Source of the DNA: Mycobacterium dioxanotrophicus
Lineage (GTDB): Bacteria; Actinomycetota; Actinomycetes; Mycobacteriales; Mycobacteriaceae
Assembly (NCBI RefSeq): GCF_002157835.1
Contig: NZ_CP020809.1
Location: forward strand, 248,001 to 312,000
DNA: 64,000 bases
Reading direction: 5' to 3'
This document shows positions 3,503-50,095 of the stretch, piece by piece; the stretch's first letter is position 1; each line of letters begins with the position of its first letter. A model generated the notes under the pieces. That model saw nothing but the letters and a program-made list of their open reading frames with translations. It ran no database searches and had not been told where the DNA came from. The position numbers were made by a program, and so were the translations under genes.

Positions 3503-11187
<7,685 letters not shown>

Positions 11188-21044: not shown

Positions 21045-22352
21045 ATGGGTGTCATGCCATCGGGCGCAATATCTTTCGACGCTGACGCGGTCAGTCCCGC
21101 GCAGCGGTTGGAGGTGTTGATCGACGAATTGTCGGAGTTGTGCGGGCAACGCAACGCCATCGACGGACGCATCGTCGACATCGTCGCCGAACTGGAGCGC
21201 GACGAATTGTGTGGCGCCACCGGGGCCCGCTCCATCACGGCGTTGGTGGCCTGGAAAACCGGTGTCACCCCGAACAACGCCGACACGATCGTGGCGGTGG
21301 CACGCCGCGCCGAGCAATTCCCCCTCTGCACCCAAGCCCTGCGGGAGGGCCGGTTGTCACTCGATCAGGTCGGGGTGATCGCCGACCGCGCCGCCGACGG
21401 CTCCGATGCGCACTTTGCCGAGCTGGCGGCGGTGGCCACCGTGGCCCAATTACGCACCGCGATCAAACTCGAACCCAAGCCCGAACCCCAACCCGATCCC
21501 GACGCGCCCACTGAGCCGGAGCCGGTGGCGCCGGAGCCGAAACGCTCGTTCACCAAAATCGAGCACGACGACTACACGACCTACCAGATCACCCTGCCCC
21601 GGCTGGAGGCAGCGAAACTCGATGCCGGGATGCGGTCGCATCAGGAGGCGCTGATCGCGGCGTGGAAACGCGACGACGACGAAGGGGACCAGGTATCGGA
21701 ACAGGCACCACCCTTCCCGAATGCTGTCGATGCGTTCATGAGCCTCGTGGAGGCCGGCTGGGACGCGGACGTGGAGCGCCGCCCGCACGGGCAGCACACC
21801 ACCGTCGTCGTCCACGTCGATCTCGACAAAGATGGCGAGAAACCCGTCGCCGCCCTGCATCTGGGCCCCGTGCTCACCGACGACGAACGGCGTTACCTGA
21901 CCTGTGACGCCACCTGCGAAATGTGGTTCGAACGCCACGGGCAACCCATCGGCGCGGGACGTGCCGCCCGCACCGTCAACCGCCGGCTGCGCCGCGCGTT
22001 GGAGCACCGCGACCGGTGCTGCGCCGTCCCCGGCTGCGGAGCCACCCGCGGCCTACATGCGCACCACGTGCGGCATTGGGAGGACGGCGGCCCCACCGAG
22101 CTGGACAACATGGTCTTGCTGTGTCCCTACCACCACCGGTTGCACCACAAGGGCGGCATCACCATCACCGGCCCCGCCCACCAGCTCAGGGTCACCGACG
22201 CCACCGGCCGCGCACTGCACCGGGGTTCGCTGGCCCGGCCACCGACCACACCCCCACCCCAGGTGCCGCCCTATCGCGGGCCGACCGGCGAACGCGCCGA
22301 CTGGTGGTGGTACACCCCCTTCCAACCCCAACCACCACCATCGCCCAATTAA
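21045..22352 (+). CDS. 13E12-repeat family HNH endonuclease-domain protein
   Basis: A 435-residue protein with an N-terminal DUF222 region (about residues 1-290) and a C-terminal HNH nuclease domain (about 324-370; CAVPGCG, HAHHVRHW.DGG, LLCPYHHRLHH). An acidic, Pro-rich insert (about 142-165) divides the DUF222 part. Such 13E12 proteins occur in many copies in mycobacterial genomes; the M. tuberculosis REP13E12 copies serve as integration sites for the phiRv1 prophage. The start is uncertain: ATG at 21045 or 21054; the frame is open further upstream to 20970. It overlaps the convergent amidohydrolase end by 4 nt. Its cellular role is unknown; no inverted repeats or target duplication were found around it. 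Confidence 0.85.
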   Translation: MGVMPSGAISFDADAVSPAQRLEVLIDELSELCGQRNAIDGRIVDIVAELERDELCGATGARSITALVAWKTGVTPNNADTIVAVARRAEQFPLCTQALREGRLSLDQVGVIADRAADGSDAHFAELAAVATVAQLRTAIKLEPKPEPQPDPDAPTEPEPVAPEPKRSFTKIEHDDYTTYQITLPRLEAAKLDAGMRSHQEALIAAWKRDDDEGDQVSEQAPPFPNAVDAFMSLVEAGWDADVERRPHGQHTTVVVHVDLDKDGEKPVAALHLGPVLTDDERRYLTCDATCEMWFERHGQPIGAGRAARTVNRRLRRALEHRDRCCAVPGCGATRGLHAHHVRHWEDGGPTELDNMVLLCPYHHRLHHKGGITITGPAHQLRVTDATGRALHRGSLARPPTTPPPQVPPYRGPTGERADWWWYTPFQPQPPPSPN

Positions 22353-23998
22353 CCTCGGTAGACGGTCTTTCCGCCAACGATGGTCTCGACTGCGCGCAGA
22401 GTCCCGACGTCCTCGGCGGTGAAGATGTCCTGGTCGAGGATCACGAGATCGGCCCGCATGCCTTCCGAGATGCGGCCGGCCCGATCCTGACTGTTGGCGT
22501 AAGCGGAGCCCGCGGTGTAGGCATCGATCGCCGACCGCAGTGAGATGCCTTCCTGCGCTTGCAGAGGGGTATCGAAGACACCGTCGCCGATCGCGTGTGG
22601 ATCGGCATGCGTGCCGGTGCGGTGCACCGCGGTATGGATGGCCCACAACGGATTCGGGTCCGTCACCGGCCAGTCGCTGCCCATCGCCAGGGTGCCGCCG
22701 TGGCGTTGGATTGACGCGAACGGGAAGTGCCACGGTTCACGCTCGGGGCCAAGTAGCGGCAGCTTGCGTTCGACGATCTCCTTGTCGCGGCGGGCCCACA
22801 GGGCCTGGATGTTGGCGATGACGCCGAGTTGGCCGAACCGCGGAATATCCTGGGGGTCAACCACATCCAGATGAGCGATCTGATGGCGGGCGTTGAACTG
22901 CGGGTGACTGGCGATGGCGTGCTCGAGGGCGTCGAGGCATTCCCGCACGGCCCGGTCGCCGACAGCGTGCATGTGGATGCCGAACCGTTCGCCGGCCAGC
23001 AACGCCGTCACCTTATGCAGGTCCTCAGGATCGATGAACGACTGACCGCTGGGGATGTCGTGACCCGCCACGGCACGGTACGGCGCCAGCATGGCGGCCG
23101 TGCAGTTCTCGCAGATGCCGTCCTGCATGACTTTGACCATGCTTGCGGTGAAACGGGAATGGCCCGACAGACTGCGCCTGGCACACAGGCCATCGAGCTG
23201 TTCGGCACCCTGCTCGGCCTCCCACCACAGTGCGCCGACCACCCGGGCTGTCAGCTCGCCTGCTTCGTCGGCGTCGACATAGGTCGCGAAATTGTCCTTC
23301 AAGCCGAAGAACTCGGCGCCCACGGCAGCGTCCTGCCAACCCGTCACCCCTACGGAGTGCAGGCGGCGTTGCGCCTCCAGCAGTGCCTGACGCATGAACT
23401 GCGGCGTCACTTCGGGGATCAGCGCGTTGACGGCGTCACCGCCGCGGTCCAACAGCACCCCGGTCGGTTCGCCCGTGTGGTCCCTGATGATCCGTCCTCC
23501 GGTGGGATCCGCTGTGGCCGAGGTGATCCCGGCCAACTCCAGCGCACGCGTATTGACCCACGCGCCGTGATAGTCGTGGCTGGTCAGGATGACGGGCCGA
23601 TCAGAGACCACGGCGTCGATGTCGTGGCGGGTGGGAAACCCGTCGGGAAAGGCGTCGCCGTACCAGCCGGCCCCGGCGATCACGGATTCGCCGGGATGGC
23701 GTGCGGCGTACTCGGCGATCGCGGTCAGGTAGGCCTGACGGTCGTGTGCCAGACCGGACAGGTCACACCGCAGCGCCGCCATGCCGGCGGCGACCGGATG
23801 CGCATGAGCGTCGACGAACCCCGGCAGAAGACTTGTTCCGCCCAGGTCGGTGATGTCCGTGTGGGTTCCGATCAGATCACGGTCGACGCCGCGGCCCACG
23901 GCGACGATGGTGTCGCCCTGGATCGCCACGGTGTCGGCCGGTTCCGCGCCGGCAGGCTGGAACACGGCGGCGTTCGTGAAGATGCGGTCGGCGAACAT
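22349..23998 (-). CDS. Amidohydrolase family 3 protein (YtcJ-like)
   Basis: A 549-residue metal-dependent amidohydrolase. Visible motifs are VDAHAHP (metal-binding HxH, about residue 60), HMHAVGDRAVRECLDALE and HQIAHLDVVD (metal His), and MGSDWPVTDPNPL (catalytic Asp). Closest known relatives in this family include N-substituted formamide deformylase and other YtcJ-type hydrolases of exocyclic amide or formamide bonds. It is the last gene of a six-gene operon, starting 1 nt after the GMC oxidoreductase stop. In that setting it could hydrolyse an amide or formamide formed during degradation of the amine handled by the first enzyme. The substrate is not determined by sequence. Confidence 0.86.
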   Translation of the reverse strand: MFADRIFTNAAVFQPAGAEPADTVAIQGDTIVAVGRGVDRDLIGTHTDITDLGGTSLLPGFVDAHAHPVAAGMAALRCDLSGLAHDRQAYLTAIAEYAARHPGESVIAGAGWYGDAFPDGFPTRHDIDAVVSDRPVILTSHDYHGAWVNTRALELAGITSATADPTGGRIIRDHTGEPTGVLLDRGGDAVNALIPEVTPQFMRQALLEAQRRLHSVGVTGWQDAAVGAEFFGLKDNFATYVDADEAGELTARVVGALWWEAEQGAEQLDGLCARRSLSGHSRFTASMVKVMQDGICENCTAAMLAPYRAVAGHDIPSGQSFIDPEDLHKVTALLAGERFGIHMHAVGDRAVRECLDALEHAIASHPQFNARHQIAHLDVVDPQDIPRFGQLGVIANIQALWARRDKEIVERKLPLLGPEREPWHFPFASIQRHGGTLAMGSDWPVTDPNPLWAIHTAVHRTGTHADPHAIGDGVFDTPLQAQEGISLRSAIDAYTAGSAYANSQDRAGRISEGMRADLVILDQDIFTAEDVGTLRAVETIVGGKTVYRG

Positions 23999-23999
23999 G

Positions 24000-25562
24000 T
24001 CACGCCCGCTCTACGGTGAGCGGCTGCCGGTCGGCGAGCACCATGGCGCTGGCGTGCTCGGCCACCGCCATGATGGTGCCCACCGGGTTGACCGACGGGA
24101 TGGTGGGGAACACTGATGCGTCGACGACACGCAGTCCGTCCACGCCGCGCACCCGCAGCCGGGAATCACACACCGCCATCGGATCGTCGTCGGCGCCCAT
24201 GCGGCAGGTGCCTGACACGTGGTACACCGTCTGGTGCGTCGCGCGCAGCGCTTCGGACAGCTCTTCGTCCGACTGGGCGTCCGGGCCGGGAAAGACCTCG
24301 CGGACAAGCCAGTTGGCCATCGGCTCGGTCGCTGCGATGCGACGGGCCAATCGGATCCCGGCGATCAGGACTGCCTCGTCGTGACCGTTGGGATCGGTGA
24401 AGTAGCGGTAGTCGATCGACGGGCTTTCTGCGGGATCGGATGACGTGATCCACACCCGCCCGCGGCTGCTGGGTTTCGCGACGTTGGGTGCGATCGAGAC
24501 GATGCGCTCGGGCATCTCGACGCCGTACGTGACGGCATGGTCGGCGACAGCCTCGACGGGGAAGTGCATCAGCACCTCGGGCCGCGCGGGGCTGTCCTCC
24601 GACAATCGCACCGCGGCTCCGGCGTCCCACCCGGTGGCGCAGGTATCGGGGACATCGGCGCCGGCCTCCCAGACGATGAGGCCCTCGGCATGGTCCATCA
24701 GGTTCTCGCCGACGCCCGGGGACTCCACCACGGTGGTCACACCGGCAGCGGCGAGTACGTCCGCGGGGCCGATTCCCGACAGCTGCAGCAACTTTGGTGA
24801 ATCGATGGCACCGCAGCACACGATGACTTCGCGGTCGGCCCGGAACTCACGACGGTTGCCGTCAGCGTCACGGGTGAGGACCCCGACGGCCCTGCCGCCT
24901 TCGATGATCAGACGTTCGGCGTGCCGGCCGTGCTCGACAACGAGGTTGGCGCGGTCGGCGATGGCGTCGTGCAGGTAGTGCACCGAGGTGGAAGAGCGCA
25001 GGTGACTGGCCGGGGTGTAGCCGATCTCGAAGAATCCGGCTCCGACACCGGTGGTGGCGAACTCGGGATCGGAGTTCCAGGCCCGGCGGGCGGGCAGGCC
25101 GAGCGCCCGCCGGGCGGAGTCCACCACATCGCTGACGTACGGGTTGCGGTCCTTGTCGGCGACCGGTTCGACCGGCGCCAGGATCCGGTCGAACGCGTCG
25201 TGCACCGAGGCGGTATCCCACCCTGTGACGCCCATCGCGGCCCATTCGTCGAGATCGGCGGCCAGTGGCCGCCAGGTGATCATCGTGTTCGCCGTCGAGC
25301 AGCCGCCGAGGATCTGCATCCTGGCCTGCCGGATGCCCGAGTTACCGCGCTCCTGGGCCACACTGCGGTAGTCGAGGTCGTATTCGCTTTCCAGCATCTG
25401 CGCCCACCGCCGGATGTCGCGGGCGCGGGGCTCGTCCTTGTCAGAGGGGCCCGCTTCGAGCACTGTGACCGTGACGTCAGGGTCTTCCGAAAGTCGCGAC
25501 GCCACAATGCATCCGGCAGTGCCGCCGCCGACGATCAGGTAATCGGCCATGCTCATGCTCAT
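24000..25562 (-). CDS. GMC-family FAD-dependent oxidoreductase
   Basis: A 520-residue flavoprotein of the glucose-methanol-choline family. The N-terminus has the FAD-binding YLIVGGGTAGCIVASRLSED with a following EAGP. The second signature is GGCSTANTMITWRP, and the C-terminus has VVDASVFPTIPSVNPVGTIMAVAEHA with catalytic His in YHVSGTCRMG and NPVG context. Members oxidize alcohols or hydroxyalkyl amines such as choline. The start is ambiguous: three in-frame ATGs occur at 25562, 25556 and 25550 in a tandem ATGAGC repeat, only 2 nt after the permease stop. Embedded in the amine-dehydrogenase operon it probably oxidizes a hydroxylated intermediate or an alternative substrate. Confidence 0.86.
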   Translation of the reverse strand: MSMSMADYLIVGGGTAGCIVASRLSEDPDVTVTVLEAGPSDKDEPRARDIRRWAQMLESEYDLDYRSVAQERGNSGIRQARMQILGGCSTANTMITWRPLAADLDEWAAMGVTGWDTASVHDAFDRILAPVEPVADKDRNPYVSDVVDSARRALGLPARRAWNSDPEFATTGVGAGFFEIGYTPASHLRSSTSVHYLHDAIADRANLVVEHGRHAERLIIEGGRAVGVLTRDADGNRREFRADREVIVCCGAIDSPKLLQLSGIGPADVLAAAGVTTVVESPGVGENLMDHAEGLIVWEAGADVPDTCATGWDAGAAVRLSEDSPARPEVLMHFPVEAVADHAVTYGVEMPERIVSIAPNVAKPSSRGRVWITSSDPAESPSIDYRYFTDPNGHDEAVLIAGIRLARRIAATEPMANWLVREVFPGPDAQSDEELSEALRATHQTVYHVSGTCRMGADDDPMAVCDSRLRVRGVDGLRVVDASVFPTIPSVNPVGTIMAVAEHASAMVLADRQPLTVERA

Positions 25563-25564
25563 GC

Positions 25565-26959
25565 TCAGGCCACCGCCGGCTGCGCGGCCAGGGCGGCCAC
25601 CTTCGGCCGCATCAAAACGTAGTAGAGCGGGCAGATGACGGCCAGCCCGACGATCCACGAGATATCCACGCTACCGAGAGCTTTGGCCGTGAATCCGGTG
25701 AACAACGTCGTCGACAAGAACGGGATCTGCACCGCGATGCCGATGAAGTAGCACGCGATCGCGATCCAGTTGAACTTGCCGTACCGGCCGCCGTCGCGTT
25801 CGAACAGCGAGTCGATGTCGTAGACGCCGTGGCGCAGCAGGTAGTAGTCGACGAGATTGACGGCGGTCCACGGGATCAGCACGCACAACAGCAACGCCAG
25901 GAAGTTCGCGTAGTTGGCCAGGAAGTCGTCGGCGCTTACCAGAGCGGGGATGATCGCGATGACGAACAACACGATCGCGGTCACGGCGCGGCTGCCTGCA
26001 CCGGGGCGCCACCGCGGGAACAGGTTCTGCCCCACCGTGATCGTCGAGAGTGCGCCGCAGTAGAGGTTCATGGCGTTCGTCGCGGTGATGCCGATGGCGA
26101 AGATCGCGAACACGCCTGTGCTCACGCCGCGCGTCAGCGTCGAGAGTCCTTCGAGGGTCTCGTCGGAGGGCAACGCAGCGCCGACGAGCACGCCGAGCAA
26201 CATGGGCAGCACCGAGCCCAGCACGCAACCGGCGTAGGTTCCCCAGAACGCGGCACGCTGCCCGGTGTCCTTGGGCATGTACCGGGTGTAGTCGGAAACG
26301 TAGGGCGCATAGGCGATCTGCCACAGTGCGGCCACCGACAGCGTCGCCATGAAACCGGCCCAGCTGTATCCGCTGGTGTGCCAGGTGCCACCGGGCACGC
26401 CGTTGACGCCGACCATCCAGATGAACGCCACGACCAGCGCCCCGCCGGCAACCACGGACAGGAACGCGGTGACTCGGTGGATGAGCCGATAACCCACGAT
26501 GGTGGCCACCACGCTGATCAGCCCGATGATCGTGATGGACCAGTTGGTGGGCAGCCCGGTGACCTTGGCCAGCGCCTGGCCGCCGAGCACCGCGTTGGAC
26601 GCGAAGAAGCCCAGGTACATGAAGACCACCAGCACCACCACGAGAAGGCTTCCGTACGAGCCGAACTGGGCTCGGGTCTGCAGCATCTGGGGCACGCCCA
26701 TCTGCGGTCCCTGGGCGGCGTGCAGTGCCATCACCACACCGCCGATGACATTGCCCAGGATGATCGCGCACGCGCCGGCCCACAACGGCAGGCCGAACAC
26801 CGTGGTGGCCAGCGCGCCGGTGATGATGGTCAGCAACATGATGTTGGAACCGAACCAAACGGTGAACAGGTCACGGGCGCGGCCGTGGCGTTCGTCGACC
26901 GGGACGTGTTCGATGGTCCGCTGTTCCACGGGTGCGGACACCGGCGCTTTGTCGTTCAT
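25565..26959 (-). CDS. NCS1-family nucleobase/cation symporter
   Basis: A 464-residue permease with about twelve membrane segments, resembling cytosine/purine/hydantoin permeases (NCS1). Early motifs include FTVWFGSNIMLLTIITGALAT, GLPLWAGACAIILGNVIGG and GPQMGVPQMLQTRAQFG; further on WTAVNLVDYYL is typical. NCS1 proteins import N-heterocycles such as cytosine, allantoin or hydantoin with H+ or Na+. In an operon with a possible histamine dehydrogenase, uptake of an imidazole or amine is attractive but unproven. GGGAG lies 5 nt before the ATG; the gene starts 12 nt after the aldehyde dehydrogenase stop. Confidence 0.87.
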   Translation of the reverse strand: MNDKAPVSAPVEQRTIEHVPVDERHGRARDLFTVWFGSNIMLLTIITGALATTVFGLPLWAGACAIILGNVIGGVVMALHAAQGPQMGVPQMLQTRAQFGSYGSLLVVVLVVFMYLGFFASNAVLGGQALAKVTGLPTNWSITIIGLISVVATIVGYRLIHRVTAFLSVVAGGALVVAFIWMVGVNGVPGGTWHTSGYSWAGFMATLSVAALWQIAYAPYVSDYTRYMPKDTGQRAAFWGTYAGCVLGSVLPMLLGVLVGAALPSDETLEGLSTLTRGVSTGVFAIFAIGITATNAMNLYCGALSTITVGQNLFPRWRPGAGSRAVTAIVLFVIAIIPALVSADDFLANYANFLALLLCVLIPWTAVNLVDYYLLRHGVYDIDSLFERDGGRYGKFNWIAIACYFIGIAVQIPFLSTTLFTGFTAKALGSVDISWIVGLAVICPLYYVLMRPKVAALAAQPAVA

Positions 26960-26971
26960 GGGACTCCCTAT

Positions 26972-28453
26972 CTACAGCGCGATCCAGGTGGTTTTCAGGC
27001 CGGTGTACTTGTCGAGCGCGTGCAGGGACAGATCGCGACCGAATCCGGACTGCTTGAATCCCCCGAAGGGGGTCTGGGGGCTCAGCGCGTCGACCGTGTT
27101 CACTGAGACGGTGCCTGCGCGCAGCGCCGCGGCGACGCGGTGGGCGCGGGACAGGTCACGGGTCCACACCGAGGCGGCCAAGCCGTAGATGGTGTTGTTG
27201 GCCATCGCGATCGCCTCTGCCTCGTCGGAGAAGGTCTGTACTGCCAGCACGGGGCCGAAGACCTCCTCGGTGACCAGCTCGGCCGTCGGCGCGAGCTTCG
27301 CGACGATGGTCGGAGCAACGAAACAACCACGGCCATCGACGGTTTCGCGGGTCCCTCCGGTGACGATCTCGCCGTCAGCGCGGGCCCTGTCGATGAATCC
27401 CACGACGCGCTGGGTGTGCTGCTCGTCGACGAGGGCACCCAGGGTGGACGCCGGATCCAGCGGATTGCCCGGCCGTACCTCGGCCGTGCGCTTCACGAGC
27501 TCGGCGAGGAACTCGTCGGCGATCGATTCGTGCAGCAGCAGGCGGGAATTCGACGAGCACACCGCGCCCTGGTTGTAGAACGCGCCGAAGATCGCCTTCT
27601 CCACCGCGGCGTCCAGGTCGGCATCGGCGAACACTACATTGGGACTCTTGCCGCCGCACTCCAGCCAGACCTGCTTGGCATTGGAATCCGCGGCGTAGCG
27701 CAGGAACCGCTTGCCGGTTTCGGTGGATCCGGTGAATGCGATGACATCGACGTCGGGGTGCCGGCCGAGGGCTTCCCCGGCGGTGGGGCCGAGGCCCGGA
27801 ACGACGTTGAACACGCCTTCGGGCACACCGGCTGCCACAGCGAGTTCGGCAAGCCGCACCGACGAGAGCGGCGCTTGCTCGGCGGGCTTGAGCACCACCG
27901 AGTTCCCCGCTGCCAGGGCGGGAGCCACCTTCCACACCGCCAGGTCCAACGGGAAGTTCCACGGTGTGACGGCGCCGATGACGCCCAGCGGCTCACGGGT
28001 GACCAGCGCGAGGTTGCCGGGCTCGGTAGGCGCGATCTCACCACCCTGCTTGTCGAGCGACTCGCCGTAGAACGCGAAAAGCTCTGCAGCTGAGGGTACG
28101 TCGACGGTGTGGGCCTCGGAGACCAGCTTGCCCATGTCCATCGAATCCAGCAGTGCGAGCTCTTCGGCGTGTTCTCCGATCAACTCGGAGAGCTGCCGAA
28201 GCACCCGCTTGCGGTGTGAGGCCGAGGCGCGCGACCAGACACCCGAATCGAACGCGGCGCGTCCCGAGGCGACGGCCGCGTCGACGTCCTCGGTGTCGCC
28301 CGACGCCACCGGTGCGATCAGTTCTCCGGTGGCGGGGTTGATCGAGTCGAACGTCTCGCCGGAGACCGCGGGCCGGTATTTGCCGTCGATGAAAACCTCG
28401 GTGCGAGGCGTGATCTCACCGGCGAGGCGGGTCCAGTCGTCGAGCGTGGTCAT
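26972..28453 (-). CDS. NAD(P)-dependent aldehyde dehydrogenase
   Basis: A 493-residue class I/II aldehyde dehydrogenase. The catalytic Glu is in WLECGGKSP (about residue 260) and the catalytic Cys in NQGAVCSSNSR (about residue 294); nucleotide binding is supported by TPWNFPLDLAVWKVAPALAAGN and FTGSTETGKR. The start at 28453 is preferred over the ATG at 28459 because GAGAGG is 7 nt upstream of the former. It resembles aminoaldehyde dehydrogenases such as gamma-glutamyl-aminobutyraldehyde dehydrogenase. Placed 11 nt after the cupin gene and downstream of the amine dehydrogenase, its natural role is to oxidize the aldehyde made by that enzyme (imidazole acetaldehyde to imidazole acetate, if the amine is histamine). 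Confidence 0.9.
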   Translation of the reverse strand: MTTLDDWTRLAGEITPRTEVFIDGKYRPAVSGETFDSINPATGELIAPVASGDTEDVDAAVASGRAAFDSGVWSRASASHRKRVLRQLSELIGEHAEELALLDSMDMGKLVSEAHTVDVPSAAELFAFYGESLDKQGGEIAPTEPGNLALVTREPLGVIGAVTPWNFPLDLAVWKVAPALAAGNSVVLKPAEQAPLSSVRLAELAVAAGVPEGVFNVVPGLGPTAGEALGRHPDVDVIAFTGSTETGKRFLRYAADSNAKQVWLECGGKSPNVVFADADLDAAVEKAIFGAFYNQGAVCSSNSRLLLHESIADEFLAELVKRTAEVRPGNPLDPASTLGALVDEQHTQRVVGFIDRARADGEIVTGGTRETVDGRGCFVAPTIVAKLAPTAELVTEEVFGPVLAVQTFSDEAEAIAMANNTIYGLAASVWTRDLSRAHRVAAALRAGTVSVNTVDALSPQTPFGGFKQSGFGRDLSLHALDKYTGLKTTWIAL

Positions 28454-28464
28454 GTGCATACCTC

Positions 28465-28824
28465 TCAGGGGACGTAGATGGCGAACTGCTTGACCAGCGG
28501 CTCGGTCACGCGATACTCGCCGCGCCAGCCCTTGGTCAGCGTGAAGGAGTCGCCGGGGCCGAAGGTGTGGGCGACGCCGTCGTCACCGGTCAGGGTGATC
28601 GAGCCTTCCAGAACCCGGGTGTACTCGTCGCCCGGGTAGCTCTCGATGAACTCGGCGTACGGCTCGGCGCGCCAGGACCCGACGGTGAACTTCTCGTCGG
28701 AGCTGGCGAGATGCACGGCCTCGGTTTCGGCAGGGTTGCCCTCGCGGAGGGTTTCGGCGGTGACGTAGCTGCTGGGCGTCATGGTGGCGACGGCTTCCGG
28801 GCCGGAGGGGATCAGGGCAGGCAT
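28465..28824 (-). CDS. Small cupin-domain protein (Cupin_3/DUF861-like)
   Basis: A 119-residue single-domain cupin. A sequence around YTRVLEGSITLTGDDGVAHTFGPGDSFTLTKGWRG is the cupin core, resembling the EutQ/ureidoglycine aminohydrolase-like DUF861 group, although the usual metal-binding His pair is poorly preserved. GGAG lies just upstream of the ATG at 28824. It sits 8 nt after the amine dehydrogenase and 11 nt before the aldehyde dehydrogenase, so it is part of the pathway. It may act on an amine-derived intermediate or have a binding role; no specific function is assigned. Confidence 0.8.
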   Translation of the reverse strand: MPALIPSGPEAVATMTPSSYVTAETLREGNPAETEAVHLASSDEKFTVGSWRAEPYAEFIESYPGDEYTRVLEGSITLTGDDGVAHTFGPGDSFTLTKGWRGEYRVTEPLVKQFAIYVP

Positions 28825-28832
28825 CTTGCTCC

Positions 28833-30950
28833 TTATGCGTTGGCCGGGACGACCGGCGTGATCGGTAGATACATGACAGGTTCGGTGGCGAGTTCGGACG
28901 TTTCGCGGAGGTACGGCACGGGGCCGAGAGATTGCGGTTCGTCGAGTTCTTCGGCATAGCGATGTCCCGACCAGACGGCAGCGGCGATGGTGGCGGGCGC
29001 CCACACGTCGCCGATGGCGCGCACGCTGCGCAGATCTGCTGCGGCCCATTCGCTTTCGCGGCTCAACAGCTCCTGGTAGAGGCCGTCGTGGGGGAGCCGC
29101 GCGGTCACCATGACCACCGAGTCGGCACTCACGCTGCCCTCGTCGCCGGTGTAGACACACGCGGTGCGCACCCCGTCGGCGGTTACGGCGGTGACCGCGG
29201 TGTTGGTGCGCACGTCGATGCCGGCCCGGATCACGCGCTTGCGGATCCGCGCGACCTCCAAAGTATTGGTGGTCCACTGCGATACGTGCGCTGCGGGCGT
29301 GATCAGGATGACCTCGAGGCCCTCCTTGGCGAGCAGCTCCGCGATCACGCCGCCCATGTAGTAGTGGTCATCGTCGAACACCACGACGCGGCGACCACGC
29401 GGGCGGGTGCCCGCCATGATGTCGTCTGGGCTCAAAACATCTGCGCCTTGGGCGATATCGAGCGGGGTGGTGTGCCAGCGGCCGACCCCGTCGCTGCGCC
29501 AGCCCGCGCCGGTGGCTACGACGACGTGGTTGAAGTCGTTGTCGATGATGTCGTCGGCGGTCATCTCGCTCTGCATGAAGACCTCGACGTTGTCGAGCTT
29601 GGCGATCTGGGTTTCGCGGTAGTCGACGACCCGGATCCAGGCGGACAGGCTCGGCAACTTGGATTCGCGGGCCACGCGTCCACCCAGGGTTCGGGTGGCC
29701 TCGGCGAGGCTCACGGTGTAGCCGCGGTTGCCCAGCGAGCGGGCGGCTTCCAGCCCGGCCGGCCCGGCGCCGACCACGAGCACCGTGGCGTCGCTGGCCT
29801 TGGCCCGGATCTTCTCGGGGTGCCAGCCGCGGCGGAATTCCTCACCCATGGTGGGGTTCTGGGTGCAGCGGATGGGAGACATGGTGAAGTCACCGGACAC
29901 ACAGATGTTGCAGCCGATGCACTCTCGGATGTCCTCGAGGTTGCCCGACTCGATCTTGCTGGGCAGGAACGGGTCGGCGATGGACGGCCGGGCCGCGCCG
30001 ATCAGGTCGAGCACGCCGCTCTTCACCTGGTGCACCATCATGTCCGGTGAGGTGAAACGACCAATGCCCACAACAGGTTTGGTGGTCAACGCCTTGAGCC
30101 CGCGAACGTAGGGCTCCTGTTCGGCCTCGGGGCCGAAGCGCGACGTCACCGAATCGTCCTCCCAGCTGCCCAACACGAAGTCCCACAGATCGGGGTGCTC
30201 GCCGAGCATGCCGATGACATCTTCGATCTCGGCGCGCGTGATGCCCTCGTCGCCGAGCAGCTCGTCGACCGAGATGCGGCAGGCGACGGCGGCTTTGCCG
30301 TCGCACATCTCGCGGGTGTCCTCGAGGATCTCGCGCAGCAGGCGGGCCCGGTTCTCGATGCTGCCGCCGTATTCGTCGGTGCGGTTGTTGTAGCGCCGGG
30401 ACAGGAAGTGGTGCAGGCCGCCGATGGCGTGGCCGGCGTAGACGTAGATGATGTCGTATTCGGCCTGCAGGGACCGGCGGACGGCTTCGCGGTGCCAGTA
30501 CCGCATATCGGCGATGTCGGACTTGGTCATCTCGCGGGCCTGCACCGGGTCGTAATTCCACGACACCACGGGCAGGTTCTGCGGGCCCAGCGGGGCTTCC
30601 CGGCTGATCAGGTTCGGCGAGTTCAGACCGTTGTGGGCCAGCTCGATTCCGGCCAGAGCACCACCCTCGTGAATCTTCTCCGCGATCCGGGCCACGGCGG
30701 GCAGGTCCTGGTCGTCCCACAGGCGCAGTTCGATGAACGGGCCGATGTCGGAGGTCGGGTGGATCTCGACCTGCTCGGTGCACACCACGGCCCAACCGCC
30801 CTCGGCCTTGATCCGCCGCATGTACGCCTCACCCGACGGATCGCGGTAGCCCATGCCATTGCAGTGAGGTACCTGGTAGAAGCGGTTGCGCGCGGTGACC
30901 GGGCCGATCTGTACGGGCTCGAACAGGATGTCGTACCGGGGGTCTCGCAT
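28833..30950 (-). CDS. Flavin/iron-sulfur amine dehydrogenase, histamine dehydrogenase-like
   Basis: A 705-residue homologue of trimethylamine dehydrogenase: an FMN TIM barrel (1-340), a 4Fe-4S site and a C-terminal FAD/ADP-binding-type domain (GAGPAGLEAARSLG, about 394-408). Cys30 in RFYQVPHC matches the Cys that binds FMN covalently. Cluster ligands are Cys344, 347, 350 and 362. Catalytic-type Tyr171, His174, Arg225 and Asp265 are present. Hand alignment shows that the trimethylamine aromatic bowl (Tyr60, Trp264, Trp355) is Gln60, Trp263, Asp354 here, the set reported for Nocardioides simplex histamine dehydrogenase (Gln65, Trp267, Asp358). The electron-transfer Tyr442 position is Arg440, also non-conserved in that enzyme. 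It probably deaminates histamine or a related primary amine to an aldehyde. It is the first gene of the operon, with AGGAG 8 nt before ATG. Confidence 0.88.
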   Translation of the reverse strand: MRDPRYDILFEPVQIGPVTARNRFYQVPHCNGMGYRDPSGEAYMRRIKAEGGWAVVCTEQVEIHPTSDIGPFIELRLWDDQDLPAVARIAEKIHEGGALAGIELAHNGLNSPNLISREAPLGPQNLPVVSWNYDPVQAREMTKSDIADMRYWHREAVRRSLQAEYDIIYVYAGHAIGGLHHFLSRRYNNRTDEYGGSIENRARLLREILEDTREMCDGKAAVACRISVDELLGDEGITRAEIEDVIGMLGEHPDLWDFVLGSWEDDSVTSRFGPEAEQEPYVRGLKALTTKPVVGIGRFTSPDMMVHQVKSGVLDLIGAARPSIADPFLPSKIESGNLEDIRECIGCNICVSGDFTMSPIRCTQNPTMGEEFRRGWHPEKIRAKASDATVLVVGAGPAGLEAARSLGNRGYTVSLAEATRTLGGRVARESKLPSLSAWIRVVDYRETQIAKLDNVEVFMQSEMTADDIIDNDFNHVVVATGAGWRSDGVGRWHTTPLDIAQGADVLSPDDIMAGTRPRGRRVVVFDDDHYYMGGVIAELLAKEGLEVILITPAAHVSQWTTNTLEVARIRKRVIRAGIDVRTNTAVTAVTADGVRTACVYTGDEGSVSADSVVMVTARLPHDGLYQELLSRESEWAAADLRSVRAIGDVWAPATIAAAVWSGHRYAEELDEPQSLGPVPYLRETSELATEPVMYLPITPVVPANA

Positions 30951-31163
30951 GGAGCTACTCCTAGAGTTCGTGTAGGCGGCGCGATGGCGACGGGAGCTGA
31001 GCCGTGAGCTGGGTCACGCCGGTACTAGCCATCGTTGTGCCGCGCATAACCGAGGTCAACTAGTGGTTTCAGCGGTTTTGCATCTGATTTTCCGATGAAG
31101 TCCGCTGTGTGCCCGCCCCCTCCAAGCCAGGTGACGACCTGGCAATGACCGCGACCCGCGGGC

Positions 31164-31237: not shown

Positions 31238-31293
31238 CGAGTGGCCAGTTATGCACGCAAATGAGCGAAAAAACGCGAATAACTGGCCACTCG
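31238..31293. repeat. Long perfect hairpin, 15-bp stem
   Basis: The arm CGAGTGGCCAGTTAT (31238-31252) is repeated exactly as its inverse ATAACTGGCCACTCG (31279-31293), with a 26-nt loop that itself holds a GCG-A6-CGC element. No T-run follows, so it is not a classical terminator. A perfect stem of this length between genes suggests a dispersed palindromic repeat or a regulatory RNA structure. Confidence 0.85.
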
Positions 31294-31434
31294 GTCGCCG
31301 TTGGGCGGTGACGCCCCGGGGAGGCCACCAACGATCGCATCGGAATTTCCGATTCAAATTCACTGAAAAGGATGTTTTACAGCTGCGCGGACGCGGGTCA
31401 GTGTGGGGGCCATCACATCGAGAGAAGGATGATC

Positions 31435-32970
31435 GTGGAAACCGAACCAAGACTGGCAGCCACGGGCGATCGGGAGACCGCCCAGGCTGATCGTGAGGTC
31501 AAGCACCTCAAGAAGACGCTGGGCCGGCTCGACATCGTGTTCTTGATCGTCGCCGCGGTGGTGTCGATCGAGACGCTCGGACAGGTATCCGGATTCGGCG
31601 CGGAAACCTTCACCTGGGCCCTGGTGCTCGCGGTGTTCTTCCTGGTGCCATACGGCCTCGTGTTCGCCGAGACCGGCGGCGCGTTCACCGGTGAGGGCGG
31701 TGTATATGTCTGGTGCCGCAAGGCTTTCGGTCGCCCGGTGGCGGCCATCGCCTCGCTGCTGACCTGGGTCACCCAGCCCGTCTGGGTCGGTGGCTCGATG
31801 GCGTTCATCGCCTCGGAGACCTGGAGTACCTATATCACGCCGTTCGAGCACGGCACGGTCACCGACTACGTGTTCAAGCTGGTGTTCATCTGGCTCACCG
31901 TGCTCGCCGCGATCATCAGTCTCAAACACGGCAAGTGGATTCCGAACGTCGGCGCCATCCTCAAGATCGCCTTCCTGGTCATCTTCTTGGTGACCACCGC
32001 GATCTACGCCTCGCGGAACGGCGTCGCGGGCCTGTCCGTCAGTGACTTCAGCCCGACCGTGGCCGGCATGCTCGGCGTGACACCGCTGCTGCTGTTCTCC
32101 TACCTGGGTTTCGAATCGGGCAACAGTGCGGCAGGCGAGATGAAGAACCCCGCCCGGGACGTACCGATCTCGATCGCCCGGTCGGCAGGCATCGCCGCGG
32201 CCGCCTACCTGCTGCCGATCTTCGCCATCCTCGTCGTGCTGCCGAAAGACGACATCACCGGCATCGGTGGGTTGATGGAAGCGGTCGCGAAGGTGTTCAG
32301 TGTGTACGGCTCGGCCGCGCCGGCGATGCTCACGGTCACCGGCGTCATCTTCGCGATGATCCTGATGACCCAGGGTTCGGCCTGGATGATCATCAGCGAC
32401 CGCATGCAGGCCATGGCCGCGGCCGACGGCGCGTTCTTCGGCGGGTTCTTCGGCCGGTTCCACCCGCAGCTGGGCACGCCCGTGCGCGTCAACCTGCTCT
32501 CTGGTGTCGTGGCGACCGTGTTTTGCCTGGTCGCGATGCAGGTCACCGGGTCCTCGGCGTCGATCTTCGGTGTGGTGCTGAGCATCTCGATCTCGACCTT
32601 CCTGCTCAGCTACGTCATCTCGATTCCGGCCGCGGTGCGGCTGCGCACCCGGTTTCCCGACGTGGCACGGCCGTTCCGGGTGCCGACCGGCAACACGGGC
32701 TTCCGCATCCTGGGCGGGTTGTGCTTCCTGTGGGTCGCGCTGGGGTCGTGGGTGGCCGTCTTCCCCGGCACTCTGGAGAGCCTGTTCGGTATCGATTACG
32801 ACTTCGAGAAGACGTGGGGCGTCAGCCAGCTGACCTTCGAGGAGTTCACGCTGGGCACTCTGGTGGTGCTGGGCATCCTCGGCGCGGTGGGTTACCTGCG
32901 GGCCCGGGCGGTGCGCGCCGAACGCCCGGACACGACGCCACTCGAAGCGCCGGACGACATCTTGACCTGA
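31435..32970 (+). CDS. APC-family amino acid/amine permease
   Basis: A 511-residue polytopic transporter of the amino acid-polyamine-organocation superfamily, of the glutamate/GABA-antiporter-like type. About twelve helices are visible, with AETGGAFTGEGGVYVWCRKAFG, a FSYLGFESGNSAAGEMKNPARDVPISI segment and RPFRVPTGNTGFRILG. The GTG at 31435 is preferred: AGAAGG lies 6 nt upstream, whereas it directly abuts the ATG at 31429. It is divergent from the amine dehydrogenase operon over a shared regulatory region, which suggests import of the amine substrate or a related compound. Substrate specificity cannot be read from sequence. Confidence 0.87.
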   Translation: METEPRLAATGDRETAQADREVKHLKKTLGRLDIVFLIVAAVVSIETLGQVSGFGAETFTWALVLAVFFLVPYGLVFAETGGAFTGEGGVYVWCRKAFGRPVAAIASLLTWVTQPVWVGGSMAFIASETWSTYITPFEHGTVTDYVFKLVFIWLTVLAAIISLKHGKWIPNVGAILKIAFLVIFLVTTAIYASRNGVAGLSVSDFSPTVAGMLGVTPLLLFSYLGFESGNSAAGEMKNPARDVPISIARSAGIAAAAYLLPIFAILVVLPKDDITGIGGLMEAVAKVFSVYGSAAPAMLTVTGVIFAMILMTQGSAWMIISDRMQAMAAADGAFFGGFFGRFHPQLGTPVRVNLLSGVVATVFCLVAMQVTGSSASIFGVVLSISISTFLLSYVISIPAAVRLRTRFPDVARPFRVPTGNTGFRILGGLCFLWVALGSWVAVFPGTLESLFGIDYDFEKTWGVSQLTFEEFTLGTLVVLGILGAVGYLRARAVRAERPDTTPLEAPDDILT

Positions 32971-33034: not shown

Positions 33035-33625
33035 ATGTCCGCCATGACGAAGCGGGGCCGCCCGGGTGGGCAAGCGCGGCGTCGGCTGCTGGACGCGGCG
33101 GCGCGTCGGTTCTACGCCGACGGCATCGCGGCGACGGGTATCGACGTGGTCACGGCCGACGCGGGCGTGGCAAAAATGAGCCTCTACAACAACTTTGCGT
33201 CCAAGGCGGAGTTGGTGGCGAGCTATCTCGAAGAGCGACACGCAGAATGGCTCGGCCTGTACGCGCGGCGCCGCGCGCACGCCGTGACTGCCGAAGACAA
33301 GGTGCTGGCCGTGTTCGACGCCTACGCCGACCACGCCGAAATGGGCTATGAGCACGGCTTCCGGGGATGCGGCCTGCTCAACGCCGCCGCCGAATTGCCC
33401 GTCGGCGACCCCGGCCGCGATGCAGTGCGCCGCCACAAGGAGGAAGTGGAACAGATCCTGCGCAGCGAGCTCGTCGCCATCTGCGGTGAACATGCCGCAG
33501 ATGGCGTCGCCGAGCACATGTCGTTCCTGTTGGAGGGATCGATCGCACGCGCCGGACTGGAAGGCCGATCGGACCGGATCGCGCACGCCCGCGCCTTGGC
33601 CGCCGCATTGATGGCAGCCCTGTGA
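33035..33625 (+). CDS. TetR-family regulator
   Basis: A 196-residue TetR-type repressor. The helix-turn-helix covers about residues 32-58 (ATGIDVVTADAGVAKMSLYNNFASKAELV). The C-terminal half contains a GFRGCGLLNAAAEL segment seen in TetR proteins of the AcrR/YcdC-like group. A 28-bp inverted repeat lies immediately upstream. Its stop overlaps the GTG start of a DMT-family transporter (GTGA), so it very likely controls that transporter together with itself. The two ATGs (33035 and 33044) are both possible starts. Confidence 0.9.
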   Translation: MSAMTKRGRPGGQARRRLLDAAARRFYADGIAATGIDVVTADAGVAKMSLYNNFASKAELVASYLEERHAEWLGLYARRRAHAVTAEDKVLAVFDAYADHAEMGYEHGFRGCGLLNAAAELPVGDPGRDAVRRHKEEVEQILRSELVAICGEHAADGVAEHMSFLLEGSIARAGLEGRSDRIAHARALAAALMAAL

Positions 33626-34593
33626 CACCGCGGACCGTCGGGATGGTGGCCATCGTCGTCGCGTCGTTGCTGTGGGGAACCACCGGTACGGCGTCGGCCC
33701 TGGCGCCGTCGGTCGGCGCCGTGACAGTCGGGGCGGCGGCGATGGGCGTCGGCGGTCTGCTGCAGATCGTCTTCAGCCGGCGCGCGCTATATCGGGACCG
33801 CGCAGCGCTTTCGACGCGGTACCGGCTGGTGACGTTCGGGGGCGCGTGTGTCGCCGTGTATCCGTTGGCGTTCTACAGCTCGATGCGCATCGGTGGCGTC
33901 GCGTTGGGGTGTGTCGTGTCGCTGGCGTCGGCGCCGTTGGCATCAGCGGTGATAGAGCGGCTCTGTGACGGGCGTGCTCTCACGAGGCAGTGGGCACTCG
34001 CGTGCGGGTTCGGCATCGGCGGCAGCGTGTTGCTCAGCCTGTCGCGGCATTCCGACTCGGGCGGCGCGCACTCGGCGACGCTGGGCGTTGTGCTCGGGCT
34101 GGCGGCGGGCGGCTCGTACGCCGGCTACTCCTGGGCCATGCGTCGGCTCATGGACGACGGGACAAGCCGCGGGGCTTCGGCCGCAGCGGTTTTGGGCCTC
34201 GGCGGCATTCTTCTGATGCCGGTGTTCGTGGCGACCGCGGGCAGCGCCGTCGTGACGTATCCGGGCATCGTTGTGATCGCGTATCTGGCGGTGTTGCCGA
34301 TGTTCTTGGGATACGTCCTCTTCAGTTATGGGCTGGCGCGTGTCGGCGCCACCTCGGCGACCACCGTCACTCTCGTCGAACCGGCCGCGGCGACCGTGCT
34401 TTCGGTGGTGATCCTGCACGAAACCGTCGGCGCCGTCGGCTGGGTCGGTGTCGCGCTGATCGCGGCGGCGCTCGTCGTGCTGACCTTGCCCGGCGTCTCG
34501 CCGCGGTCCGGGCGCGCCGCGAATAAACTCGTCAGACAACCCCACGACGCTGTAGGGAGTCCCGGATGCGCCGACGTCCCGACGTCACGCTGA
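33622..34593 (+). CDS. EamA/DMT-family transporter
   Basis: A 323-residue membrane protein with ten predicted helices in two EamA repeats (about 8-130 and 150-295), including ASLLWGTTGTASALAP at the start of repeat 1 and SYAGYSWAMRRLMD/TTVTLVEPAAATVLSVVILHE in repeat 2. DMT transporters usually export metabolites or amino acids. It starts with GTG overlapping the tetR stop, and its hydrophilic tail overlaps the LysR gene by 28 nt. It could export a toxic metabolite sensed by the TetR protein. Confidence 0.87.
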   Translation: MTPRTVGMVAIVVASLLWGTTGTASALAPSVGAVTVGAAAMGVGGLLQIVFSRRALYRDRAALSTRYRLVTFGGACVAVYPLAFYSSMRIGGVALGCVVSLASAPLASAVIERLCDGRALTRQWALACGFGIGGSVLLSLSRHSDSGGAHSATLGVVLGLAAGGSYAGYSWAMRRLMDDGTSRGASAAAVLGLGGILLMPVFVATAGSAVVTYPGIVVIAYLAVLPMFLGYVLFSYGLARVGATSATTVTLVEPAAATVLSVVILHETVGAVGWVGVALIAAALVVLTLPGVSPRSGRAANKLVRQPHDAVGSPGCADVPTSR

Positions 34594-35504
34594 CCCAGCT
34601 GCGGTACTTCGTCAAGGCCGCCACGTATTCGTCGATGACCAAGGCCGCCGACGAACTGCACATCGCGCAGTCGGCGGTGTCGGCCGCGATCAGCCAGCTT
34701 GAGCAGCAGATCGGGACGCAGTTGTTCATCCGGCACCGCGCCCGCGGCCTGGCCCTGACCGCCGCCGGGGAAGAGATGCTGCGTGACACCCGCGCACTGC
34801 TGGCACATCTCGACGAGGTGCTCGACAACGCCAGCGGCCGGGTCGACCAGGTGCACGGAACGGTCCGGCTGGCGTGCTTCGTGACCTTGACGCCGTTCGT
34901 ATTGCCCCGGCTGTTGTCCGACCTCGGTGCCCGCCATCCCGAGCTGGAGGTCGAGGTCGTCGAGACGTCGGCGGATGCGATCCGCACCGTGCTGCGCAAC
35001 GGCACCGCGGAGCTTGCGCTGACCTACGATCTGGCACTCGGAACCGGCGTGGACGTCGAATCTCTTGGTGTGGCAGCGCCGTACGTGGCGCTGCCGGCCG
35101 AACACCGGCTGGCCAAACGGAAATCGATCCGGCTGACAGAGCTGACCGACGAGCCGATGGTCTTGCTCGATCTCCCGGACAGCCGTGACTATTTCGAGTC
35201 GCTTCTCGCCAAAGCCGGTGTGACACCACGTATTCGGTACCGCTCGGCCAGCTACGAGGCGGTCCGCGGTTTGGTCGCACGCGGACACGGGTTTTCGATC
35301 CTCAACCAGATCCCGGCGCACCGCGGAACCTACGATGGCGGCGCGGTGAGTACTGTCGCCATCCGCGACGACCTCCCTGGGCTGCCCATCGTCCTCGCCC
35401 GGCTGCAGTCGGTTCGCAGCACCGCTCGTGCACGTGCCGTGGCCGAGGCCGCGCGGGCCATCTTCGCCGATCGCCGTGCCGCAGGTGATGCGGAGAGTGG
35501 TTAG
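34566..35504 (+). CDS. LysR-family transcriptional regulator
   Basis: A 312-residue LysR regulator. The N-terminal winged helix-turn-helix (about residues 8-67) reads TLTQLRYFVKAATYSSMTKAADELHIAQSAVSAAISQLE; the rest is a periplasmic-binding-like effector domain (about 95-300). The start at 34566 lies inside the end of the DMT gene in another frame, with GGGAG just upstream, so the pair is probably co-transcribed. Unlike most LysR genes it is not divergent from a target; targets are not evident. A SigK-type promoter for the next unit begins 33 nt after its stop. Confidence 0.9.
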   Translation: MRRRPDVTLTQLRYFVKAATYSSMTKAADELHIAQSAVSAAISQLEQQIGTQLFIRHRARGLALTAAGEEMLRDTRALLAHLDEVLDNASGRVDQVHGTVRLACFVTLTPFVLPRLLSDLGARHPELEVEVVETSADAIRTVLRNGTAELALTYDLALGTGVDVESLGVAAPYVALPAEHRLAKRKSIRLTELTDEPMVLLDLPDSRDYFESLLAKAGVTPRIRYRSASYEAVRGLVARGHGFSILNQIPAHRGTYDGGAVSTVAIRDDLPGLPIVLARLQSVRSTARARAVAEAARAIFADRRAAGDAESG

Positions 35505-44779: not shown

Positions 44780-44786
44780 ACCAGAG

Positions 44787-44813: not shown

Positions 44814-44834
44814 GTGTGGTGCCGCGGACAATGC

Positions 44835-46256
44835 TCAGAGCGCCTCGGCGGCCTTGGGATCGTTTGGCCGGCAGAGGTTCTCGGGGCTGAGGATGCGAGC
44901 CAAGGTCTCCTCGTCGAGCAGCGCCGAGCGTCGCACCAGCTCAGGGATCGACGCGCCGGTGGCGATGGCCTCGGCGACGAGCGCGGTGGCCGCCTCGTAG
45001 CCGAGCACAGGATTGAGCGCTGTGGCGATGCTGGCCGACCGCAGCACGGTGTCACGCATGTGCTCGGCATTGGCGGTGATGCCCTGGATGCACCGCGTGC
45101 CGAGGACGTCGACGGCGGCCGTGAGGTGGTTGAGCGAGGACAGCAGGGCCCGGGCGATGATGGGCTCGAAGGCGTTGAGCTGCAACTGCCCGGCCTCGGC
45201 GGCCATGGTGACCGTGAGGTCGTTGCCGATGACCTCGAACGCGACCTGATTGACGACTTCCGGGATCACCGGGTTGACCTTGCCCGGCATGATGCTCGAA
45301 CCGGCTTGCACGGCAGGCAGGTTGATCTCGCCCAGCCCGGCCCGCGGGCCTGAGGACAGCAGCCGCAGATCGTTGCAGATCTTCGACAGCTTCACCGCGG
45401 CCCGCTTGGTTACACCGGAGAGCTGCACGAAGGCCCCGACGTCGGAGGTCGCCTCGACCAGGTTCCCGGCAGTGCTCAGCGGCAAGCCGGTGAGCACGCG
45501 CAGCCGCTCACAGACCAGCGCGGCGTACTGCGGATGGGTATTGAGGCCGGTACCTATGGCTGTGCCACCCAGGTTGATCTCGGCGATGAGCGCCAAGGCC
45601 TCTTCGAGCCGGTCGGCGTCTTCACCGATGGTGATGGCGTACGCGCCGAACTCCTGGCCGAGCGTCATCGGCACGGCGTCCTGCAACTGAGTGCGACCGA
45701 GCTTGAGCATGTCGGCGAATTCGATCGATTTGGCGGTGCAGCGCTCGGCGAGCCCGCGCAATGCCTGTTCGAGGGACCGCGCAGCCATCCCGAGGGCGAC
45801 TTTGACCGCGGTGGGGTAGACGTCGTTGGTGCTCTGCCCGAGGTTGACGTGCTCGAGCGGATGAAGGTGGCGATACTCGCCCCGCTGGTGACCGAGGATT
45901 TCCAGCGCGCGGTTGGCGATCACCTCGTTGGCGTTCATGTTTGTCGACGTTCCGGCGCCGCCCTGGATCTGGTCCACGACGAACTGGTCGTGCAGGGCCC
46001 CACCGCGGATCTCGATGCACGCCGCGATGATGGCCTGGGCGATTCCGTCGTCGAGCTGCCCGAGCTGTAGATTCGCCTCGGCCGCAGCCTGTTTCACCGC
46101 AGCCAGAGCCACCACCAGATCAGGGTTTTGCGAGATCGGCACGCCGCTGATGGGGAAGTTCTCCAGCGCGCGGGCGGTGTGCACGCCGTAGTAGACGTCG
46201 GCGGGGACATCCTTGTCGCCGAGTAGGTCGTGCTCAGTGCGGGTCGGGGTGGGCAT
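44835..46256 (-). CDS. aspA: Aspartate ammonia-lyase
   Basis: A 473-residue member of the fumarase/aspartase family. N-terminal RTEHDLLGDKDVPADVYYGVHTARALENFPISG is typical of aspartases rather than fumarases; GGAGTSTNMNANEVIANRA and the signature GSSIMPGKVNPVIPE are complete. It converts L-aspartate to fumarate and ammonia. Last gene of a five-gene operon, 3 nt after the M20 hydrolase, which suggests that the hydrolase releases aspartate from an N-substituted precursor. This would feed carbon to the TCA cycle and release ammonia. Confidence 0.93.
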   Translation of the reverse strand: MPTPTRTEHDLLGDKDVPADVYYGVHTARALENFPISGVPISQNPDLVVALAAVKQAAAEANLQLGQLDDGIAQAIIAACIEIRGGALHDQFVVDQIQGGAGTSTNMNANEVIANRALEILGHQRGEYRHLHPLEHVNLGQSTNDVYPTAVKVALGMAARSLEQALRGLAERCTAKSIEFADMLKLGRTQLQDAVPMTLGQEFGAYAITIGEDADRLEEALALIAEINLGGTAIGTGLNTHPQYAALVCERLRVLTGLPLSTAGNLVEATSDVGAFVQLSGVTKRAAVKLSKICNDLRLLSSGPRAGLGEINLPAVQAGSSIMPGKVNPVIPEVVNQVAFEVIGNDLTVTMAAEAGQLQLNAFEPIIARALLSSLNHLTAAVDVLGTRCIQGITANAEHMRDTVLRSASIATALNPVLGYEAATALVAEAIATGASIPELVRRSALLDEETLARILSPENLCRPNDPKAAEAL

Positions 46257-48522: not shown

Positions 48523-48543
48523 GACCACTGTCCTCTTTCCTCT

Positions 48544-49800: not shown

Positions 49801-49854
49801 CCCAACCTCCACTGCTCGGACAGAATCGCTCGTTGGAAACCATGATTCAGCCGC

Positions 49855-49874: not shown

Positions 49875-50095
49875 ATATATTCGATCTAATTCATCTGAAA
49901 AACCGATCCGCGGCCGGGCGGCGCGATCCGTGCGGGGGTAACGGTTCACCGGCCCGTCACCATGCGTTCGACGTGGCGCACAGCGCCGGGGCACGGTTTG
50001 GACCACCATCTTCAGATGTGGGCACGAGACGTTTGACAGCACCCGGCGAGACTCCCGATACCGGGATCCCGACGGCGGTGGCCGCCAGCATGACG

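Follow-up and report, generated by a model that had tools for sequence, protein, structure and literature searches.

The locus analysed here raises the question of which amine is oxidised by a mycobacterial flavoprotein related to trimethylamine dehydrogenase (TMADH), and which pathway this oxidation would feed. The window, that is, the whole stretch of 64,000 nucleotides of Mycobacterium dioxanotrophicus that was analysed, contains the gene as an open reading frame of 705 amino acids, which runs from ATG to stop without an internal stop:

28833..30950, minus strand, histamine dehydrogenase-type flavoprotein (HDH) with C30, the cluster Cys, Y171/H174/D266, Q60/W263/D354, and I176 together with F355

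The initial annotation had described a full-length TMADH-type protein at exactly these coordinates, with no strand given, and this was borne out, with 44.2% identity to TMADH (PDB 1djn) in the aligned region. The PDB search ranked the HDH of Nocardioides simplex first (3k30, 1038.6 bits, 67.5% identity over the aligned length), followed by the HDH of Rhizobium sp. 4-9 (6de6, 875.2 bits, 55.7% aligned identity), 6l6j (672.4 bits, 48.2%) and TMADH (545.4 bits). Among named proteins, those of mycobacteria come closest, with 97% in Mycobacterium sp. 852013-50091_SCH5140682 and 93-95% in M. wolinskyi and M. goodii, and some source records call the relatives NADH:flavin oxidoreductase or dimethylamine/trimethylamine dehydrogenase. 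No close copy was found in the genome besides the reading frame itself, the next best long matches being about 30% identical.

The window protein was aligned with the PDB chains 3k30, 6de6, 6l6j and 1djn. C30 corresponds to the 6-S-Cys-FMN cysteine (C35 in N. simplex, C30 in TMADH), and C344, C347, C350 and C362 correspond to the four [4Fe-4S] cluster cysteines of TMADH, as had been claimed. The Tyr/His/Asp catalytic triad that the available text of PMC10180351 names for HDH is present as Y171, H174 and D266, and Arg225 is also kept. Regarding the bowl positions, Q60, W263 and D354 align with Q65, W267 and D358 of N. simplex HDH, in agreement with the set that had been attributed to that enzyme; the Rhizobium HDH has the same bowl residues, and the three are conserved in all 120 listed homologues (the best 120 of 8000 scored, window HDH included). 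TMADH belongs to the same protein family and shares the flavin and cluster cysteines, but its bowl of Tyr60, Trp264 and Trp355 is different. The replacement of these residues by Gln60, Trp263 and Asp354 holds for the residues themselves, whereas the substitution of Asp354 for Trp355 is correct by loop position but not by alignment column, where the four other proteins have no residue opposite Trp355 and E356 of TMADH is the partner of D354. Likewise, the TMADH residue Tyr442 is indeed lost (Arg440), but this loss is not specific to the window protein, because 3k30, 6de6 and 6l6j also carry Arg at that place.

The agreement of the three bowl residues does not extend to the whole active site. 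The proposed histamine site of N. simplex HDH comprises eight residues according to the available text of PMC10180351, and seven of them are matched in the window protein (Q60, I69, F72, E74, N110, W263 and D354). The eighth, Tyr181 of N. simplex, is Ile176 here, so the aromatic found at this site in N. simplex (Tyr181) and Rhizobium (Phe176), a proposed binding residue that was not taken as family-defining, is missing. The Rhizobium residue is Phe176 in the paper and 179 in the numbering of the aligned chain. All active clones of its saturation library were unsubstituted at this position, as far as PMC10180351 describes them, and Ile at such a substitution-intolerant site counts against a histamine dehydrogenase. 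Among the same best 120 of 8000 homologues, residue 176 is Ile in 106, Leu in 10 and Met in 4.

However, a second position changes together with this one. A set of 103 rows with Q60/W263/D354, with reference, short and duplicate rows included, was used to compare residues 176 and 355, both listed as tunnel residues of the Rhizobium enzyme in the available text of PMC10180351. An aliphatic residue at 176 is paired with Phe355 in 31/33 rows (the exceptions are L078 and L152), whereas an aromatic 176 is paired with Met355 in 58/68 and with Phe355 in 3/68; the rows are related, so these counts are not independent. Given the pairing in 31 of 33, we read this as an aromatic that moved within the pocket, from 176 to 355, and it looks less like one that was lost. 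Other differences from N. simplex HDH are Trp131 in place of Asp, Phe355 in place of Leu, and the loop YAGHAI in place of YGAHGY, while the Rhizobium enzyme differs by Phe176, Met355 and Cys266 where the window protein has Ile, Phe and Asp. The Ile176/Phe355 variant is a natural test of the residues that build the histamine pocket.

A quick maximum-likelihood tree (IQ-TREE, 85 rows, SH-aLRT support only, several long branches flagged) placed the window HDH with the characterised HDHs, close to the N. simplex enzyme and amid HDH-type proteins of actinobacteria. Nineteen Ile/Leu176 proteins from mycobacteria, Rhodococcus, Gordonia and relatives, the window HDH among them, form a group (support 100) inside a fork of 27 rows (support 89). 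The N. simplex group is part of this fork, whose inner branching is only partly settled. The Rhizobium HDH lies in a separate fork of 29 rows (support 100), and TMADH forms a distant branch of its own with two mycobacterial TMADH-like proteins (L020, L021). Three mycobacterial paralogues (L052-L054, 63%) also fall inside the 27-row fork; they carry Glu60, Val69, Tyr72 and Leu176, and no hin genes were seen in their stretches.

The gene context decides how the enzyme is read, since its neighbours are of the hin type, that is, of the histamine degradation pathway of Pseudomonas. The genes on both sides of HDH are as follows:

22349..23998, minus strand, Amidohydro_3 amidohydrolase, accessory; some Alphaproteobacteria have an amidohydrolase next to a GMC gene close to hin genes
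24000..25565, minus strand, GMC oxidoreductase, choline-oxidase-like, accessory; its closest PDB entries are choline oxidases (379-398 bits), and as there is no start codon at 25565 the ATG is probably at 25562
25565..26959, minus strand, NCS1-family permease (Transp_cyt_pur), accessory, with a 47% homologue near an N. simplex-type HDH locus (L062)
26972..28459, minus strand, aldehyde dehydrogenase (ALDH; Aldedh), putative HinD role (imidazole acetaldehyde to imidazoleacetate); best NCBIfam match PuuC, below cut-off
28465..28830, minus strand, small cupin (Cupin_3, Pfam) between HDH and ALDH; the true start is probably a few codons inside
31372..32970, plus strand, APC-family permease, putative HinA role (amine uptake), 66.8% identical to the permease beside the L062 HDH
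33035..33625, plus strand, TetR regulator by family match, only a candidate for a pathway role
34566..35504, plus strand, HinK-like LysR regulator

The LysR protein has 3fzv and 6m5f as its best PDB sequence hits (175 bits each, the next 103), and 6m5f is titled as HinK of P. aeruginosa. A second gene group lies at 44.8-49.8 kb, 13.9 kb from the HDH group:

44835..46256, minus strand, aspartate ammonia-lyase, HinI role (PRK12273 exceeds its cut-off with 720.5 bits; TIGR00839 aspA reaches 648 bits against a cut-off of 681.2)
46260..47417, minus strand, M20 amidohydrolase by family match, HinG role suggested by gene order and class
47414..48088, minus strand, DUF1028 protein, the only DUF1028 match in the genome, HinH role suggested by gene order
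48085..48528, minus strand, RidA-family protein (Ribonuc_L-PSP), HinL role
48544..49812, minus strand, FAD monooxygenase, putative HinF role (imidazoleacetate monooxygenase), 73% identical to the gene at L062

In the available text of PMC6467879, HinF is a FAD-monooxygenase (EC 1.14.13.5), HinL an enamine deaminase, HinH and HinG amidases and HinI an aspartate ammonia-lyase, and PMC8231116, likewise in its available text, places hinG, hinH, hinL and hinF at PA5390-PA5393 in P. aeruginosa. By family and order, the FAD monooxygenase, RidA, DUF1028 and M20 amidohydrolase genes reproduce the published hinF-L-H-G order, with hinI in addition; of the Pseudomonas Hin proteins, HinK alone was compared by sequence, through the PDB. 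The HinI, HinD, HinA and HinK roles of the Pseudomonas putida U and P. aeruginosa pathway would also be filled by fitting families. On the other hand, the window differs in having HDH where Pseudomonas has the HinC aminotransferase, in its hinI gene directly after hinG, and in the extra NCS1, GMC, Amidohydro_3 and cupin genes. No match to a class-III aminotransferase was detected in the window at E <= 1e-40, with that of L165 as the query. Between LysR and the hin genes, a CMAS methyltransferase, a DUF1365 protein and a FAD amine-oxidase-fold protein lie together on the minus strand (41437-45070), with no pathway link seen.

Enzymes of the HDH family oxidise histamine with a Cys-linked FMN to imidazole acetaldehyde and ammonia, and the electrons leave via the [4Fe-4S] cluster. 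The window protein would perform this same reaction, with electrons leaving through its own cluster, on histamine taken up by the APC permease, and would take the place of the HinC aminotransferase. The ALDH would then convert imidazole acetaldehyde into imidazoleacetate, HinF together with HinL, HinH and HinG would open the ring and release aspartate, and the aspartase HinI would yield fumarate. The HinK-like regulator may bind a palindrome shared by three transcription units. The reactions, substrates, electron acceptor and regulation in this scheme are predicted from gene families, their order, conservation and association. With a probability of roughly 0.86, we consider the window HDH to be a histamine dehydrogenase that catalyses the first step of a hin-type histamine-to-fumarate pathway, the genes of which lie together with its own within 27 kb. 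The histamine dehydrogenase proposed in the initial annotation thus appears well founded on sequence grounds, the two characterised HDHs being its closest solved relatives, the N. simplex enzyme lying near it in the tree and hin gene families occurring in its neighbourhood. The feature is, however, much larger than the single gene of that annotation, extending to a probable pathway.

The same arrangement was found at other loci. The HDH of L062 is 94.1% identical to 3k30, i.e., of the N. simplex type, and is accompanied by ALDH, the APC permease, hinF, hinL, hinH, hinG, hinI, LysR and NCS1, while GMC, Amidohydro_3 and cupin had no match in that stretch. In six mycobacterial stretches (L045-L049 and L051), hinF/L/H/G/I are close to LysR, the APC permease, HDH and ALDH; another (L050) has the same set without hinI, and Gordonia polyisoprenivorans (L100) and a relative (L059) have the same genes rearranged. 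Plasmids of the proteobacteria Ideonella, Haematobacter, Pseudohalocynthiibacter, Leisingera and Rhizobium gallicum combine HDH with hinF/L/H, with a distance of some 9-13 kb between HDH and the hin genes in Ideonella. The hinF match of Paracoccus (L071) is fragmented and falls where no gene is annotated, and Shinella (L073) has hinL/H. Sinorhizobium pSymA (L070) carries none of hinF/L/H, and its HDH-family protein has Glu60. Some of the other HDH loci have a cupin as well; that of Ideonella is annotated as such and lies downstream of HDH.

For a count of this association, the best 80 of 585 confirmed loci from a genome scan for the HDH family were joined with 20-kb and plasmid stretches collected before. 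One duplicate and five genes in short stretches were removed, near-copies were retained, and 103 distinct genes of the HDH family remained, all in stretches of 12 kb or more (L082 holds two). Among the 94 genes with Q60/W263/D354, at least two of hinF/L/H are nearby in 69, one in 6 and none in 19, and none of the nine genes without this set has any of them (Fisher p 2e-5, relatedness ignored). The 25/94 with fewer than two in the fetched stretch count against the pathway reading, although the absence at L044 is an artefact of a stretch that was too short, since its contig has the hin genes at a distance of some 17 kb. Separated by residue 176, at least two of hinF/L/H accompany Tyr in 2/2, Phe in 41/61, Ile in 13/16, Leu in 11/13 and His in 2/2. 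Matches to GMC were found at 21/94 and to Amidohydro_3 at 12/94 of the genes with the set, and at 0/9 of the others. In Alphaproteobacteria the identity of these matches is no more than about 29-34%, which is close to the family level, but in L067, L091, L092 and L154 a GMC and an amidohydrolase gene adjoin each other, a few kb at most from hin genes. In Pseudohalocynthiibacter (L068, 2519-4203), genes for ETF beta and a FAD-binding protein lie beside aspartase, hinF/L/H, ALDH and HDH, which points to ETF as a possible electron acceptor in that organism. Among Klebsiella plasmid records, 475 have a HinF-like match (E <= 1e-60) and 105 a DUF1028 match (E <= 1e-20), and some of either may be other family members.

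A survey of 148 genomes of the same genus found HDH-family matches in 10 (E <= 1e-150), 9 of which carry the window HDH type; two of these (G033 and G041) also have the Glu60 paralogue, and G143 has the paralogue only. HinF is present in 17 genomes (E <= 1e-120), in 9/9 with HDH vs 8/139 without it (Fisher p 3e-10). Of the eight HDH-less genomes with hinF, three have a class-III aminotransferase near the hin genes (L164, L165 and L168), one has a nitrilase and a haem aldoxime dehydratase (L163) and one a nitrilase on a cut contig (L170), while the four first-step queries matched nothing in the stretches of the other three (L166, L167 and L169). Class-III aminotransferases had no match at E <= 1e-40 in the genus stretches around the window HDH type. 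That different enzyme families occur at the same place argues for a single substrate, histamine, which this step would convert from amine to aldehyde. Outside the genus the swap is not strict, given that the aminotransferase has a 32-37% match in each of the proteobacterial HDH stretches L078, L127 and L151, and that L132 has HDH plus a 42% match to an Arthrobacter amine oxidase. In an Arthrobacter plasmid (L076, 5874-7844), a primary-amine oxidase gene lies with ALDH, LysR and hinF/L/H/G/I. The gene pair of L163 (13367-15462), in a mycobacterium without HDH, is near LysR, an NCS1 permease and hinF/L/H/G/I, and suggests an aldoxime/nitrile entry to imidazoleacetate.

The Ile at position 176 leaves room for another substrate. 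The clade that carries it could have shifted to a different imidazole-ethylamine, such as N- or ring-methylated histamine, with histamine as a minor substrate and a locus that still degrades imidazoleacetate. The Ile, Leu or Met of the 120 best homologues at a site that is intolerant in Rhizobium HDH would fit this shift, as would neighbours without an assigned role (GMC, Amidohydro_3 and NCS1). Nevertheless, hin linkage is as frequent for Ile/Leu176 (24/29) as for Tyr/Phe176 (43/63), and the Phe355 that accompanies the aliphatic residue in 31/33 looks like the aromatic in a new position rather than its loss, so we regard such a shift as improbable.

A polyamine dehydrogenase acting on putrescine, agmatine or 1,3-diaminopropane together with a PuuC-like aldehyde dehydrogenase seems very unlikely. 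The N. simplex and Rhizobium enzymes oxidise these amines to some degree, according to the available text of PMC10180351, and the ALDH has PuuC as its best match, although below cut-off; but the recurring partners that can be named are imidazoleacetate genes and a HinK-like regulator, and no GABA or guanidinobutyrate gene was seen among the neighbours run against Pfam (part of the window ORFs). Least credible of all is the dimethylamine/trimethylamine dehydrogenase after which some source records name the relatives: the 44.2% identity to TMADH agrees with it, whereas Tyr60 is replaced by Gln, Trp355 is absent and TMADH branches far away with L020 and L021.

If the window HDH does catalyse the first step of a hin-type pathway, some mycobacteria and related actinomycetes would be able to take histamine all the way to fumarate by a route that is complete and regulated, histamine dehydrogenase would be the first hin step in actinomycetes and proteobacteria, and the NADH:flavin oxidoreductase or dimethylamine/trimethylamine dehydrogenase names of these proteins would be corrected. 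It would also tie DUF1028 to a pathway step worth testing. The enzyme and the pathway are of known kinds, while no precedent is apparent for their combination, this host group or this pocket variant in the literature searched (mostly non-subscription journals), in which a histamine pathway in environmental-type mycobacteria does not seem to have been described. The nearest parallel is the putative pathway of cheese Brevibacterium, an actinomycete with hinA/D/F/G/H/I/L homologues whose growth on histamine is shown in PMC6467879; there, in the available text, the proposed first step is a copper histamine oxidase or a HinC homologue and not HDH. More broadly, it is conceivable, though rather doubtful at present, that imidazoleacetaldehyde and imidazoleacetate form a hub with exchangeable entry modules (within one bacterial genus, a flavin dehydrogenase in some species, a class-III aminotransferase in others and, near the module of at least one more, aldoxime dehydratase plus nitrilase), with the aromatic wall of the histamine pocket moved from 176 to 355 in this clade of the dehydrogenase and GMC/Amidohydro_3/NCS1 as another, undescribed entry. 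As a guess, the latter might serve the oxidation of imidazole-ethanol (histaminol) or the release of histamine from N-acyl histamines.

Concerning regulation, a pattern search detected three candidate operators:

31083..31095, minus strand, putative operator TCGGAAAATCAGA, upstream of HDH
31340..31352, no strand, putative palindromic operator TCGGAATTTCCGA, upstream of the APC permease
49894..49906, minus strand, putative operator TCGGTTTTTCAGA, upstream of hinF

The pattern TCGGWWWWTCMGA occurs at four places in the 8.08 Mb genome, namely before HDH, the APC permease and hinF and at C1:1384387, and its reversed control had no match in the same 8.08 Mb; as the pattern was derived from these same sites, only its rarity counts. 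A wider pattern with at most one mismatch is found upstream of HDH in 11/21 sequences, of hinF in 5/16, of LysR in 1/21 and of ALDH in 0/21, compared with a background of 55/3000 random 430-bp pieces of the same loci. Among the hinF upstream regions of L045-L049, only that of L047 has the site with at most one mismatch, and no operator site was detected before HDH or hinF in the N. simplex-type stretch (L062).

Moreover, a perfect 15-bp inverted repeat (CGAGTGGCCAGTTAT / ATAACTGGCCACTCG) lies between HDH and the APC permease (31238-31293), and the genome has one further copy of its inner 14-base arms, at C1:4041605, with a different loop. At the start of the window, two very long adjacent reading frames of 1166 and 2562 amino acids occupy the plus strand (2-11187).
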